The notes beneath the pieces were generated by a model, which was not told where the DNA came from, searched no databases, and saw only the letters and a program-made list of their open reading frames with translations. A stretch of DNA of 32,500 nucleotides from Armatimonadota bacterium (GTDB lineage Bacteria; Armatimonadota; UBA5829; JAUSEB01), in contig JAUSEB010000404.1 of NCBI GenBank assembly GCA_030650495.1, positions 1 to 32,500 on the forward strand, in the 5' to 3' direction. Made by a program: the position numbers and the translations under genes. Of this stretch, positions 3,913 through 32,464 are shown piece by piece (position 1 is the stretch's first letter; the number at the start of each line of letters is the position of its first letter).

Positions 3913-3929
3913 ATTCACATCACCTCGAT

Positions 3930-3964
3930 TTAGAAGTTAGAAGTTAGGAGTTAGGAGTTAGAAT
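3930..3964. repeat. Heptanucleotide array, TTAGAAG/TTAGGAG x5, next to apt ribosome-binding site
   Basis: Five units in phase: TTAGAAG twice, TTAGGAG twice, TTAGAAT. On the minus strand the array ends about 3 bases before the GAGGTG Shine-Dalgarno sequence of apt, so it forms part of the immediate upstream region of that gene. Confidence 0.92.
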
Positions 3965-4003: not shown

Positions 4004-4048
4004 CCGGCGCTTTCAGCGCCGGCATCGGCAGCAGGCTACCGATGCAAC
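4004..4048 (-). repeat. REP-like double-hairpin element, copy 1
   Basis: Read on the minus strand, the first hairpin (GCATCGGTAGC, CT loop, GCTGCCGATGC, one G-T wobble) is followed directly by a second hairpin with a GAA loop. The first 27 bases are identical to the copies at 13360 and 17495. The second hairpin has CGGCGCT/AGCGCCG arms instead of GGCGCC/GGCGCC, so the arm changes are compensated. All three copies have the same orientation relative to the genes around them. Confidence 0.88.
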
Positions 4049-4063
4049 AGGGAGCACAAGTCC

Positions 4064-7884: not shown

Positions 7885-7914
7885 ATAGGAAATGAAATTT
7901 AGTTTAGGTTTGTA

Positions 7915-7942
7915 TTCTAACTTCTAACTCCTAACTTCTAGA
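7915..7942. repeat. Heptanucleotide array TTCTAAC/TCCTAAC x4, next to rmlA ribosome-binding site
   Basis: Units TTCTAAC, TTCTAAC, TCCTAAC, TTCTAGA in phase. The array ends one base before the GGGAGG Shine-Dalgarno sequence of the next gene. Confidence 0.9.
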
Positions 7943-7956
7943 TGGGAGGTTGTTTT

Positions 7957-13066: not shown

Positions 13067-13285
13067 ATGGAAATGAAACCGTATGTGACAAGAGATACCA
13101 GCATAGCGGAGTTGCTTCAAAAGTACCCGCAAACAGCCGACGTGTTCAGCAGTCATGGTTTGGGCTGCTTTGTGTGTTTGGGCGCGTCTATGGAGACGGT
13201 GGAAGAAGGCGCGATGATGCATGGTTTGGACGCAGACACGATAATAGAGGAGCTGAACCGGGTAATTGGGGAGCAGTTGGTTTAG
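13067..13285 (+). CDS. DUF1858 domain protein (small cysteine-containing, redox-disulfide type)
   Basis: A 72-residue protein matching the DUF1858 family, found alone or attached to hybrid-cluster proteins and thought to have a redox-active disulfide. MYVTRDTSIAELL-like opening, then the HGLGCFVCLGAS motif with a CxxC pair, then an acidic helix. The ATG at 13067 is chosen because GGAG lies 10 bases upstream, overlapping the end of the preceding gene; an in-frame GTG at 13058 is too close to that site. It starts 5 bases after the DUF1385 gene, so they are cotranscribed. Its TAG stop lies within the first unit of a TTAGAAG heptad array. Partner proteins are unknown. Confidence 0.82.
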   Translation: MEMKPYVTRDTSIAELLQKYPQTADVFSSHGLGCFVCLGASMETVEEGAMMHGLDADTIIEELNRVIGEQLV

Positions 13286-13309
13286 AAGTTAGAAGTTAGG
13301 AGTTAGAAG
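13282..13309. repeat. Heptanucleotide array TTAGAAG/TTAGGAG x4, containing a stop codon
   Basis: Units TTAGAAG, TTAGAAG, TTAGGAG, TTAGAAG in phase. The TAG of the first unit is the stop codon of the DUF1858 gene (13283-13285). Confidence 0.92.
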
Positions 13310-13321
13310 GGGGAATTTATC

Positions 13322-13347: not shown

Positions 13348-13359
13348 ATAAGTTGTTTT

Positions 13360-13406
13360 GTTGCATCGGTAGCCTGCTGCCGATGCTGGCGCCGAAGGCG
13401 CCAAAC
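13360..13406 (+). repeat. REP-like double-hairpin element, copy 2
   Basis: A 47-base element identical over its full length to the copy at 17495-17541: hairpin GCATCGGTAGC/GCTGCCGATGC followed by GGCGCC-GAA-GGCGCC. It ends 27 bases before the argS start codon, within the leader of that gene. Confidence 0.92.
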
Positions 13407-13433
13407 TCCCCCGACTCCCTAGAACGAGGATAT

Positions 13434-17468: not shown

Positions 17469-17477
17469 TTCTCCCCA

Positions 17478-17491
17478 TTCTAACTCCTAAC
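17478..17491. repeat. Heptanucleotide array TTCTAAC-TCCTAAC
   Basis: Two units just before the REP-like element. The stretch CCATTCTAACTCCTAAC recurs at 17586-17602. Confidence 0.75.
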
Positions 17492-17494
17492 TTT

Positions 17495-17541
17495 GTTGCA
17501 TCGGTAGCCTGCTGCCGATGCTGGCGCCGAAGGCGCCAAAC
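17495..17541 (+). repeat. REP-like double-hairpin element, copy 3
   Basis: Identical over 47 bases to the copy at 13360-13406. It is followed at once by the GC-rich palindrome at 17543. Confidence 0.92.
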
Positions 17542-17542
17542 C

Positions 17543-17564
17543 CCCTCTCCCTTGAGGGAGAGGG
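17543..17564. repeat. GC-rich palindrome (CCCTCTCCCT family)
   Basis: Perfect 10-base arms CCCTCTCCCT and AGGGAGAGGG around TG, followed by TTGGGGTGAGGGTG. The same palindrome-plus-tail occurs at 3966-3999 on the minus strand. Confidence 0.85.
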
Positions 17565-17588
17565 TTGGGGTGAGGGTGAAATATCCCA

Positions 17589-17616
17589 TTCTAACTCCTA
17601 ACTTCTAACTTCTAAT
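17589..17616. repeat. Heptanucleotide array TTCTAAC/TCCTAAC x4, abutting a start codon
   Basis: Units TTCTAAC, TCCTAAC, TTCTAAC, TTCTAAT in phase. Only one base separates the array from the ATG of the dehydrogenase gene, so the array occupies the place of a ribosome-binding site. Confidence 0.92.
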
Positions 17617-26001: not shown

Positions 26002-26417
26002 GCAGAACAATGGCGCTCGACGTAGGCGACAAGACTATTGGCGTTGCGATAAGCGACCCGCTGGGCATTACCGCTGAGCCGTTGACGGTAATCAAGCGCT
26101 CGGCAAGCGTCAAAGCGGATTTGAGGGAAATAGAGGACCTGATCCGGCAATACGATATATCGCGAATCGTAGTCGGTATCCCGATAATGCTGGCAGGAGA
26201 AGAAGGAGTTCAAGCAGGCAAGGTCAGAGAGTTTGTCGAAAGACTCAAAAGGCGGCTCAGGATTCCCGTAGCAACATGGGACGAGAGACTGACTACCGTC
26301 GAGGCCGAACGAGCGCTTTTGGAAGCCGACGAGAGCCGCGCTAAAAGACGGCAGGTTATAGACAAGGTCGCGGCGGCGATTATTTTGCGGAATTACATGG
26401 CGGCTAACAAGGAATGA
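25998..26417 (+). CDS. ruvX: Putative pre-16S rRNA nuclease / Holliday junction resolvase
   Basis: A 139-residue YqgF/RuvX protein with an RNase H-like fold, implicated in processing the 5' end of 16S rRNA. Motifs are MALDVGDKTIGVAISD with Asp8, IVVGIPI, the WDERLTTVEAE segment with Glu96, and IDKVAAAIIL with Asp122, giving the usual acidic triad. The length is typical. It overlaps the preceding membrane protein gene (ATGA) and is followed, after a 295-base repeat spacer, by mltG. Confidence 0.94.
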   Translation: MSRTMALDVGDKTIGVAISDPLGITAEPLTVIKRSASVKADLREIEDLIRQYDISRIVVGIPIMLAGEEGVQAGKVREFVERLKRRLRIPVATWDERLTTVEAERALLEADESRAKRRQVIDKVAAAIILRNYMAANKE

Positions 26418-26477: not shown

Positions 26478-26483
26478 GGGTAT

Positions 26484-26542
26484 AGCTTTCAGCTATCAGC
26501 CGTCAGCTATCAGTTGATAGCTGATAGCTGACCACTGATAGC
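26484..26542. repeat. Heptanucleotide array x8, AGCTATC family, with inverted halves
   Basis: Units AGCTTTC, AGCTATC, AGCCGTC, AGCTATC, AGTTGAT, AGCTGAT, AGCTGAC, CACTGAT followed by AGC, in strict 7-base phase. The left half (AGCTATC) and right half (GATAGCT) are inverse copies, so the array can form a hairpin. Confidence 0.85.
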
Positions 26543-26550
26543 TTGTTCAT

Positions 26551-26686
26551 ATACTGCGGGAACGGTGTGTTTAGAAGAACCGCGGATTAAGCATAAGGCA
26601 GTTCCCGCAGTATGCCGTCGATATAAGCTGCGGGAATTGCGGTCGATTAAGCACATAAGTCTCTGCTATAAGACCATTCCCGCAGC
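26551..26686 (+). repeat. Tandem double-hairpin element, copy A (upstream of mltG)
   Basis: Hairpin 1 has 13-base arms ATACTGCGGGAAC (26551-26563) and GTTCCCGCAGTAT (26601-26613) with a 37-base loop. Hairpin 2 has 11-base arms GCTGCGGGAAT (26627-26637) and ATTCCCGCAGC (26676-26686) with a 38-base loop. Both share the core CTGCGGGAA/TTCCCGCAG, so the outer arms could also pair with each other. The loops share GATTAAGCA and ATAAG motifs. The element ends 26 bases before the mltG GTG, with only its ribosome-binding site in between. Function unknown; structured RNA leader or dispersed DNA repeat are both possible. Confidence 0.85.
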
Positions 26687-26712
26687 ATAGTAACAATTAA
26701 GGACGTGGCGAA

Positions 26713-27786
26713 GTGGCGCGTATAAAAGAGATACTAGCGACAGTCCAGGTATATATCCTTATATTGGTCGCGCTCCTTGCCGCGTCAACATGGGCATTGA
26801 ACTGGGTCTCCTCGCCCATCTCAAACGACAACACGCCGGTAATGGTGACCATACCCAAGGGCGCGTCCGGGGCCGAGATCGCGCGGCGGCTGAAGGACGC
26901 CGGACTGATTCGCAGCCGCCTGGCTTTCATTTACACCGTCCGAACACGGCGCGCTGGCGAAATGCTAAAACCCGGGGAATACGAACTGCGCCGCAGCATG
27001 AGCCTGTTGGAGATTATAGAGAAACTGGAGCGCGGCGAGGTTGCCGCTGCGTCGATAACTATCCCTGAAGGATACACCGTACGACAAATCGCTCATCTAT
27101 TGGGGGAGAAGGGGATAGTTAATGAGAAAGAGTTCTTATATATAGCTCTGCATGGGGCAGGCCGGTTCAAGAGCATCGTCGCTGTCCCATCTCCGAGTCT
27201 TGAGGGCTATATCTTCCCGGAGACATATCAGTTTCCCAGGAAGTTATCCCCTGATTTTGTGATACGCGAGATGCTTGCCGTTTTCAACAAGAAAGTCGCG
27301 GAACAGTTCCGGCAGGAAATCCAAGACTATAATCCTCCCCAGGCCGGGACGTTGACTCTATCGGGCGGCGAGTTTAAGTATAATTTGCACGAAATCATCA
27401 CTATGGCGTCCATCGTGGAGCGCGAAGCCAGGACGGATGAAGACAGGCCGCTTATAGCTTCTGTCATCAACAACCGATTGCGGAAAGGTATTCGCTTGCA
27501 GATAGACGCTACTGTCCAATACGCTATGGGCGAGCACAGGCCGCGTCTTTTCTTTCGTGACTACAAAACGCCGTCTCCATACAATACCTACTTGTGTTTG
27601 GGCCTTCCGCCGGGGCCAATTGCAAATCCGGGCATCAAGTCCATCGAGGCCGTCTTATACCCAGCGACAACGGACTATCTGTATTATGTGGCGAACGGAG
27701 ACGGCTCACATGTCTTTACCAGGACACTTGAGGAGCACGCCCAGGCTGTGTCCGAAACGCGAACTGGACGGCAGAATTCACAATGA
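26713..27786 (+). CDS. mltG: Endolytic murein transglycosylase MltG
   Basis: A 357-residue YceG/MltG protein that cleaves nascent peptidoglycan strands from the outer face of the cytoplasmic membrane. A single membrane anchor covers about residues 10-32, then a LysM-like GYTVRQIAHLLGEKGIV region, LEGYIFPETYQF, the MASIVEREA motif with the catalytic glutamate, NRLRKGIRLQIDATVQYAMG and the closing LPPGPIANPGIKSIEAVLYP. The start is a GTG with AAGGA 9 bases upstream. It overlaps yqeG by ATGA, beginning the mltG-yqeG-aroE coupled unit. Confidence 0.95.
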   Translation: MARIKEILATVQVYILILVALLAASTWALNWVSSPISNDNTPVMVTIPKGASGAEIARRLKDAGLIRSRLAFIYTVRTRRAGEMLKPGEYELRRSMSLLEIIEKLERGEVAAASITIPEGYTVRQIAHLLGEKGIVNEKEFLYIALHGAGRFKSIVAVPSPSLEGYIFPETYQFPRKLSPDFVIREMLAVFNKKVAEQFRQEIQDYNPPQAGTLTLSGGEFKYNLHEIITMASIVEREARTDEDRPLIASVINNRLRKGIRLQIDATVQYAMGEHRPRLFFRDYKTPSPYNTYLCLGLPPGPIANPGIKSIEAVLYPATTDYLYYVANGDGSHVFTRTLEEHAQAVSETRTGRQNSQ

Positions 27787-28337
27787 TAGTTGAACTGTTC
27801 TGTCCTTCGGCAATCGCGAGGTCGCTGGACCAGGTGGACTTGGACGACCTCCAGGCGCGAGGTATAGACTCCGTTATCCTGGATTTGGACAATACTATCG
27901 TCGCCTGGCAGCGGTTCGATGTGCCCGATAGCATCATTCAGTGGATGAGCGAGGCGCGAAAACGGGGTATTAGACTCTGCATAGCGTCCAACACCCGGAA
28001 CACCCGAAGGTTGGACGAGATCGCCGGCAAGTTAGCGGTTCCATCCATTTGCCGCGCGCTCAAGCCCCGCCGGAAGGGTTTTATCGAGGCTTTGAAACTT
28101 ATGGGTAATGACGCCGCCCATACGGCGGTGATCGGCGACCAGATACTGACTGACGTCTTAGGCGGCAACCGGGTCGGTATGTATACTATACTGGTAGCGC
28201 CAATGCACAGGCGAGAATTCATCGGCACAAAGGTCAGCCGGATATTCGAAAAACTGCTGATTATGTGGTTCTGCAGGAAGGGTTTAATGGGAACAAAGCC
28301 ACTAACTTCACAGTCAGAAAGAGAGGAGCGGCCTTGA
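27783..28337 (+). CDS. yqeG: YqeG-family HAD phosphatase
   Basis: A 184-residue HAD superfamily IIIA phosphatase of the YqeG type. Motif I is VILDLDNTIVAW with the nucleophile and acid aspartates, motif II is IASNTR, the motif III lysine is in KPRRKG and motif IV is IGDQILTDVLGG. Its physiological substrate is not established for the family. It overlaps mltG (ATGA) and its stop overlaps the TTG start of aroE. In other bacteria yqeG commonly precedes aroE or a ribosome-assembly GTPase, and the order here agrees with that. Confidence 0.9.
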   Translation: MIVELFCPSAIARSLDQVDLDDLQARGIDSVILDLDNTIVAWQRFDVPDSIIQWMSEARKRGIRLCIASNTRNTRRLDEIAGKLAVPSICRALKPRRKGFIEALKLMGNDAAHTAVIGDQILTDVLGGNRVGMYTILVAPMHRREFIGTKVSRIFEKLLIMWFCRKGLMGTKPLTSQSEREERP

Positions 28338-29209
28338 AGGGGATCACTGGGCAAACGAAGCTTCTTGGAGTGTTTGGGCATCCTGTTGTGCACAGCCTGT
28401 CACCGGCTATGCACAACGCGGCGCTTGAAGAACTAGGCCTTAACTGTGTGTATCTCCCCTTCGATGTAGACCCCGCGCATCTGGAGCAAGCGGTTCATGC
28501 TATCCGCGCGCTCGGAGCCATTGGGGTCAACGTGACGATCCCGCACAAGGAAAAAGTGATCCCGTTCCTTGACGAAGTCTCGCCGCAAGCGAGGCTCATC
28601 GGCTCCGTAAACACAATAAGTAACAAAGATGGCCGGCTGCTCGGCGAAAGCACGGACGGCGAAGGTTTTCTCCAGGCGCTGAAGGCGGTTGGGACCAACG
28701 TTAAAGGCAAGCGAGCGGTTGTGATTGGCGCCGGAGGATCATCGAGGGCGGTAACATACGCTCTGGTTTCTCACGGCGCGTCTGTTACCGTCGCCAACCG
28801 GACCCTGGAGCGCGGCGAGGAGTTGGCGAGATCGATCAACGAGATCACATCGTCCGATGATGCGCATGCGGTGTCTCTTGCGCCGGAAGAGCTGAAAGAA
28901 GCTATCGAAGGCGCTGATATACTGGTCAACAGCGCCTCTATGGGCATGTGGCCGGATGTTGATTTCACTCCGTGCCCGGAAGAGCTTCTTCATCCAGGAC
29001 TGTTGGTTTATGATTTAGTATATAACCCGCTGCACACGAAGTTGCTGCAGGCAGCCGAGCGTGTAGGAGCGGCGACGATCAGCGGGATAAAAATGTTGGT
29101 TTACCAGGGAGCGATTTCGTTCAAAATCTGGACGGGGCGCGATCCTTCGGTAGATGTCATGGAGAGCGCGGCTCTCGCTGAGTTGACGGCGAGACAAGCG
29201 CCCAGTTAA
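28334..29209 (+). CDS. aroE: Shikimate dehydrogenase
   Basis: A 291-residue NADP-dependent enzyme reducing 3-dehydroshikimate to shikimate in aromatic amino acid synthesis. Substrate-binding GVFGHPVVHSLSPAMHNAAL opens the protein, with the catalytic lysine in GVNVTIPHKEKV, the STDGEGFLQAL segment, the Rossmann motif VIGAGGSSRAVTYAL, VANRT and the closing GIKMLVYQGAISF. I chose the TTG at 28334: it overlaps the yqeG stop (TTGA), has GAGAGGAG 5 bases upstream and matches the family start. A longer frame from 28265 would translate yqeG DNA. Confidence 0.94.
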   Translation: MKGITGQTKLLGVFGHPVVHSLSPAMHNAALEELGLNCVYLPFDVDPAHLEQAVHAIRALGAIGVNVTIPHKEKVIPFLDEVSPQARLIGSVNTISNKDGRLLGESTDGEGFLQALKAVGTNVKGKRAVVIGAGGSSRAVTYALVSHGASVTVANRTLERGEELARSINEITSSDDAHAVSLAPEELKEAIEGADILVNSASMGMWPDVDFTPCPEELLHPGLLVYDLVYNPLHTKLLQAAERVGAATISGIKMLVYQGAISFKIWTGRDPSVDVMESAALAELTARQAPS

Positions 29210-29212
29210 TAT

Positions 29213-29241
29213 GCTTCGCGGGCTGCTTTTCGCCCCGAAGC
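29213..29241. repeat. Imperfect CTTCGGG-type hairpin after aroE
   Basis: Arms GCTTCGCGGG and CCCCGAAGC pair with one mismatch. It begins 4 bases after the aroE stop and belongs to the palindrome family seen at 2931 and 7859. Confidence 0.55.
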
Positions 29242-29267
29242 GCTCTCAGTTGCAGGACTCTTCACTA

Positions 29268-29403
29268 TCCTGCGGGAACGGTGTGTTTAGATAAACTTTG
29301 GATTAAGTATAAGGCAGTTCCCGCAGGAATTCAGCCTAGATAAGCTGCGGGAATTGCGAGCGACTTAGTGCATCAGTCTCTACTATAAGACCATTCCCGC
29401 AGC
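29268..29403 (+). repeat. Tandem double-hairpin element, copy B (upstream of pilB)
   Basis: Same structure as copy A: hairpin 1 arms TCCTGCGGGAAC (29268-29279) and GTTCCCGCAGGA (29317-29328), loop 37 bases; hairpin 2 arms GCTGCGGGAAT (29344-29354) and ATTCCCGCAGC (29393-29403), loop 38 bases. Loop lengths equal those of copy A. The base pair next to the CTG core is A-T in copy A and C-G in copy B, a compensatory change. It lies upstream of the probable pilB promoter at 29439-29447, so it is not necessarily part of the pilB transcript. Confidence 0.85.
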
Positions 29404-29438
29404 ATACAGGTCAGGTGACGGACGATAGTAACTCACTA

Positions 29439-29447
29439 TGGTATAAT
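29439..29447 (+). promoter_or_regulatory. Extended -10 promoter of pilB-pilT
   Basis: TGGTATAAT is a perfect -10 hexamer (29442-29447) with the TGn extension. No good -35 is seen at the usual distance, as is allowed for extended -10 promoters. The start of transcription would be about 20 bases before the pilB start codon. Confidence 0.6.
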
Positions 29448-32390: not shown

Positions 32391-32464
32391 TGGGTGATAG
32401 ATTAGGAGTTAGGAGTTAGAAGTTAGGAGTTAGGAGTTAGAATCCCAACCTTGAACCTTGACTC
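32388..32464. repeat. Heptanucleotide array x11 with changing units, starting at the pilT stop codon
   Basis: Eleven units in unbroken 7-base phase: TGATGGG, TGATAGA, TTAGGAG, TTAGGAG, TTAGAAG, TTAGGAG, TTAGGAG, TTAGAAT, CCCAACC, TTGAACC, TTGACTC. The first three bases are the pilT stop codon. Three unit families (TGATGGG, TTAGGAG and the CCTCAAC-like TTGAACC) join without a change of phase. A further CTCTCGA-type repeat follows to about 32480. Confidence 0.9.

Follow-up and report, generated by a model that had tools for sequence, protein, structure and literature searches.

A dispersed long-loop REP-type hairpin family and its putative RAYT in an Armatimonadota genome

What are the two similar double-hairpin elements that stand before mltG and pilB on one contig of an Armatimonadota genome, and do they belong to those genes? 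The window analysed here is the entire contig C101 (32,500 nucleotides), part of a 3.59 Mb assembly of 464 contigs. An earlier note had placed the copies at 26551-26686 and 29268-29403 and had offered three options for them, a structured RNA, a protein-binding DNA element or a mobile repeat. Both copies are present, in conserved blocks that reach slightly further, 26549-26690 for copy 1 and 29265-29407 for copy 2, each on the forward strand. Copy 1, which served as the query (100%) of the genome-wide search, occupies the gap between an ORF end at 26417 and mltG; copy 2, 84% identical to it, lies in the aroE/pilB gap, and the flanks of the two copies are unrelated to each other. Directly before copy 1, at 26480-26546, are nested copies of AGCTATCAG/CTGATAGCT, and runs resembling these occur in other gaps of the same genome and before pilB in the nearest relative, G001.

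Each copy contains two hairpins with the stem core CTGCGGGAA/TTCCCGCAG. The loop lengths of 37 and 38 nt described before hold if the stem is taken to include one more pair, C-G in hairpin 1 and T-A in hairpin 2; outside the first stem, copy 1 indeed has an A-T pair and copy 2 a C-G pair. Hairpin 2 is a diverged inverted copy of hairpin 1 (TGCGGGAAYGG...CARTTCCCGCA on the other strand), and when it is read on that strand both hairpins follow one plan, TGCGGGAA[C/T]GG ... CA[G/A]TTCCCGCA. Thus, each copy is an inverted doublet (BIME/REPIN-like) of one ancestral unit. In a covariance-model search, copy 1 resolves into unit A at 26549-26612 on the forward strand (tag ATAT at 26549-26552, hairpin ends 26555-26609, E 4.8e-12) and unit B at 26627-26690 on the reverse strand (hairpin ends 26629-26684, reverse-strand tag CTAT at 26687-26690, E 3.8e-12). 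The corresponding units of copy 2 are at 29265-29328, forward (tag CTAT at 29265-29268, hairpin ends 29271-29325, E 1.3e-12), and 29344-29407, reverse (hairpin ends 29346-29401, reverse-strand tag GTAT at 29404-29407, E 4.1e-11). RNA folding of the forward strand bears out the two alternative folds proposed previously: the best fold of copy 1 is the two local hairpins (-57.5 kcal/mol, z-score -5.5), and that of copy 2 is one nested outer pairing (-60.9 kcal/mol, z-score -6.4). A "switch" of this kind is normal for an inverted REP doublet.

The two copies belong to a family that is far beyond chance in its own genome, with about 100 hairpins at about 60 sites. A genome-wide search for the pattern TGCGGGAA-N25..55-TTCCCGCA returned 83 hairpins, compared with none for the reversed pattern, and, at E <= 0.01, a covariance model built from 64 units matched 105 times, a few sites being counted on both strands. 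The doublet query yielded 55 BLAST matches, a count that takes in some second-strand and short matches and includes solo first units and solo second units; the other doublets have diverged to 74-92% identity to copy 1. Pattern matches in Firmicutes, Verrucomicrobia and one alphaproteobacterium resembled the family in little other than the arms used for the search and were discounted as chance matches. Hairpins occur either solo, in some cases flanked by TATGC...GCATA, or as "+ -" doublets, the arrangement of 23 of the 26 neighbouring unit pairs, 20 of them with a gap of 18-21 nt.

A unit is about 60 nt long (53-58 nt between its T and A ends), with an imperfect stem of 10-13 bp and a loop of about 37-40 nt. 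Arms and length are conserved, and the loops split into several subfamilies, each with its own loop sequence. Directly 5' of the foot, TAT stands at positions -5 to -3 in 86 of 88 oriented units, the full tags of the 88 being CTAT (37), TTAT (20), ATAT (15) and GTAT (14); this NTAT tag is one-sided, the 3' side of the unit being less conserved. Of 96 units, 93 retain a G.A mismatch that follows the pair-9 position. Because the arms themselves served to collect the units, an arm pair that never varies has no weight as evidence; pairs 9 and -2, which the collecting pattern did not specify, give a fair test of covariation. Among 64 sequences, 41 have C-G at pair 9, 23 have T-A and none has a broken pair, and the outer pair -2 is G-C in 39, C-G in 13 and A-T in 7 of 66 units. 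Judged from these alignments, both pairs show true compensation, and the stem covaries.

Units lie almost entirely between genes. In the part of the genome sequence that was counted, using a simple home-made gene caller and with overlapping stretches that leave a few duplicates, 40 units stood in tandem gaps, 5 in convergent and 4 in divergent ones, in both orientations and without a fixed orientation to the genes; six more were scored as intragenic, most of them through loose and spurious matching. A special link to envelope genes was not confirmed, the mltG and pilB sites being two of about 60. Eight relatives were compared. In G001, a genome of the same family whose PilB is 88% identical, the gap between aroE and pilB has no such element (compared at the level of the gap), no unit was found near or upstream of pilB in any of the eight, and one of them, G001, has a single unit of a different loop subfamily about 170 nt before mltG. 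We thus rejected a conserved position before mltG or pilB; placement is lineage-specific, and the two genes mark two of many landing sites. At pilB, a TATAAT box at 29442-29447 on the forward strand, a putative promoter that was not among the consensus-scan matches, is retained in G001 as GGTATAATCTT. Copy 2 lies upstream of this conserved box and is thus probably outside the pilB leader.

The strongest clue to the origin of the family is on another contig, C311, where a 183-aa ORF (L029:777-1328) sits amid an array of the hairpins, with five units on its upstream side and three on its downstream side, most of them alternating in orientation. Its product matches the NCBIfam model for REP-associated tyrosine transposases (NF047646) at E 3.4e-22, with a score of 78.9 against a cut-off of 80. 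The sole domain matched, Pfam Y1_Tnp, is weak and below cut-off (E 6e-4), and the only PDB match is TnpA-REP (4er8, E 2.6e-4). The IS200 model fits the protein much less well than the REP model does, and its HUH and Y---NP motifs are intact, the latter being the class 2 signature (PMC6006769). This is the one intact copy of its close kind in its own genome. Across 291 Armatimonadota genomes, close RAYTs (E <= 1e-30) number five genes in four genomes, and all five have family hairpins 13-130 nt away, imperfect ones in the case of G011:C179; family hairpins stood beside none of 25 other Armatimonadota RAYT loci checked. The hairpin model matches just 8 of the 291 genomes, all of the same order or class, and the four with close RAYTs are all among them. 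In a tree, the hairpin-bearing RAYTs group together plus two others, with modest support (83/82).

The order "+ unit, RAYT, - unit" recurs in the genome itself, G003 and G021, and the doublet may thus be a gene-less form of this arrangement. Hairpins are present and an intact RAYT of the close kind is absent in G001, G002, G005 and G017, and no RAYT was found between the hairpin pairs of G005:C197. G001 has at least 93 family hairpins, yet the cognate kind of RAYT is found there only as short fragments, so that its hairpins are either an orphan population or the mark of an assembly gap. Residues Q95, E100, H101 and R104 are among those involved in GTAG contact in the E. coli enzyme (PMC6006769); in an alignment with PDB 4er8, on which this comparison rests, the C311 RAYT has K, A, V and D at these positions and keeps W94. 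Other RAYTs of Armatimonadota likewise differ at the GTAG-contact positions. The substitutions would fit a different guide, a correlation and not proof.

Two further RAYT-like genes in the same genome are each bounded by a hairpin family of their own. On contig C324, inverted copies of GC[AT]TCGGTAGCCTGCTGCCGA[AT]GC flank the RAYT gene (L041:1325-1801), and the family supplies a second dispersed palindrome of the window (13357-13410, 17492-17545 and, on the reverse strand, 4006-4049). This palindrome consists of TGTTGCATCGGTAGCCTGCTGCCGATGC plus a small GC hairpin and has at least 41 genome copies, those listed being 90-100% identical, which suggests recent spread. The third gene, on contig C114 (G000:C114), lies between inverted 78-nt hairpins GTTTCGGGA...TCCCGAAAC (L069:1398-1475 and 2062-2139), of which more copies are found on contig C204 (L063); its relative in G001 (L111) has two stop codons and similar hairpins. 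That one genome holds three such enzymes, each with a repeat family, makes an accidental pairing of enzyme and repeat much less likely. Heptamer-like runs (TTAGAAG/TTAGGAG) also occur on both strands in between-gene gaps of the window, at 30-64, 3927-3964, 7906-7949, 13279-13316, 17474-17615 and 32392-32443.

We therefore read the element as a REP/BIME (REPIN)-type repeat with its RAYT, at a probability of roughly 90%; the mobility itself is what we infer. Of the options raised earlier, the mobile repeat is the one favoured, with features of protein-binding DNA, by the dispersed copies in both orientations, the 5' tag and the RAYT within the array, and the structured RNA is unsupported. The statement that the element matched no known riboswitch or REP family stands as regards Rfam, where there was no match at gathering and, at E up to 10, merely chance matches outside the element, and as regards REP sequence; its anatomy is nonetheless that of a REP/BIME with a RAYT. 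Because the hairpins are dispersed between genes and clustered at one RAYT, they were most likely spread by that enzyme. E. coli TnpA-REP needs a 5' tetranucleotide and a stem bulge and cuts single-stranded REP (PMC8266576). By analogy, the C311 RAYT would bind the folded single-stranded hairpin, read the mismatched stem and the NTAT tag, the latter as its guide, and cut and rejoin single-stranded DNA. Doublets and solo units would in this way be copied or moved into gaps between genes, two of these gaps happening to lie before mltG and pilB. Effects on the two genes, through mRNA end stability or supercoiling, would be secondary.

The alternative that survives best is that the repeat is immobile now and serves the host as a DNA element that the RAYT or some other protein maintains, either as a protein-binding site or to stabilise mRNA 3' ends. 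The doublets have drifted, yet tag, stem and mismatch are fixed, and known REPs bind host proteins (PMC6006769, PMC8266576); spread is favoured instead by the lineage-specific placement and by the array around a single RAYT, and we consider such a role unlikely as the whole explanation, although it adds to the REP/RAYT reading more than it excludes it. Far less probable is a MITE-like element carried along by a conventional transposon that cuts both strands and has TATGCTGCGGGAA at its ends: the inverted ends of the doublet and the TATGC...GCATA flanks of some solo units would suit it, but no transposase gene other than the RAYT was seen with such ends, the flanks differ between the 5' and the 3' side, and each half is a hairpin by itself that is also found solo. 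We give least credence to a riboswitch-like cis-regulatory RNA in the mltG and pilB leaders, toggling between a pair of local hairpins and a single outer pairing, since the stable alternative folds, the compensatory stem pairs and the same-direction genes behind both window copies are outweighed by the lack of an Rfam match, the roughly 60 sites in both orientations relative to genes, the relatives without a unit upstream of pilB and the TATAAT box downstream of copy 2, and since the covariation suits single-stranded DNA equally well. Integron attC sites were also rejected, as the arms are without the attC core motifs.

Among known systems, the closest likeness is to REP/BIME with RAYT/TnpA-REP (REPtrons), such as E. 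coli group 2 (PMC8266576, PMC6006769), which shares the many intergenic imperfect palindromes, the inverted doublets, the 5' tag at the hairpin foot, the conserved stem irregularity and one intact cognate RAYT (HUH, Y---NP) inside a repeat array. The E. coli tag is GT[AG]G, whereas the Armatimonadota family has NTAT and a loop of about 37-40 nt, and the four contact residues differ as described above; without a GT[AG]G tag, the family is not a canonical GTAG REP. In TIRtrons, compared by description, a RAYT-like gene (TIRYT) likewise stands between long inverted repeats, some of which are self-complementary; the repeats recur elsewhere as dispersed copies, dimers and clusters among them (PMC3733652). 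Most TIRYTs carry a C-terminal helix-turn-helix extension (PMC3733652), which the C311 RAYT is without, and the conserved 5' tag and mismatched stem of the present family are as in REPs. TnpA-Y1 class 3 and subclass 2.6 share a non-GT[AG]G tag, dispersed copies and a structure found only by inspection beside the gene (PMC6006769). Both are set apart by description, class 3 by a Y----Q motif and a CnGA foot, compared with Y---NP and NTAT here, and subclass 2.6 by its weaker structures and mostly Bacteroidetes hosts (PMC6006769). IS200/IS605 elements likewise have a Y1 HUH enzyme with hairpins next to its gene; here, the protein is nearer the REP model, and a single intact close copy goes with about 100 dispersed hairpins. 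No report of a RAYT or REP in Armatimonadota turned up in the open-licence papers searched. The repeats are thus a new long-loop REP family of a kind, REP/BIME with RAYT, that is already known. We propose further, and only tentatively, that they may represent a RAYT-REP lineage with a rule of its own, in which an NTAT guide and a long-loop mismatched hairpin would be read by a RAYT that had lost all four GTAG-contact residues, and the doublets would be gene-less derivatives of "+ RAYT -".

The RAYT/REP partnership is known mainly from Proteobacteria, and the present family, whose tag differs and whose enzyme has a changed contact patch, extends it to Armatimonadota. A false riboswitch lead is removed, the regulatory-RNA reading for mltG and pilB being not supported. 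The altered tag and the altered contact residues together pose a testable question of recognition, a natural test of how RAYT enzymes choose their hairpin, and one genome with three RAYT genes, each with its own hairpin family, offers a compact system for enzyme-repeat co-evolution.
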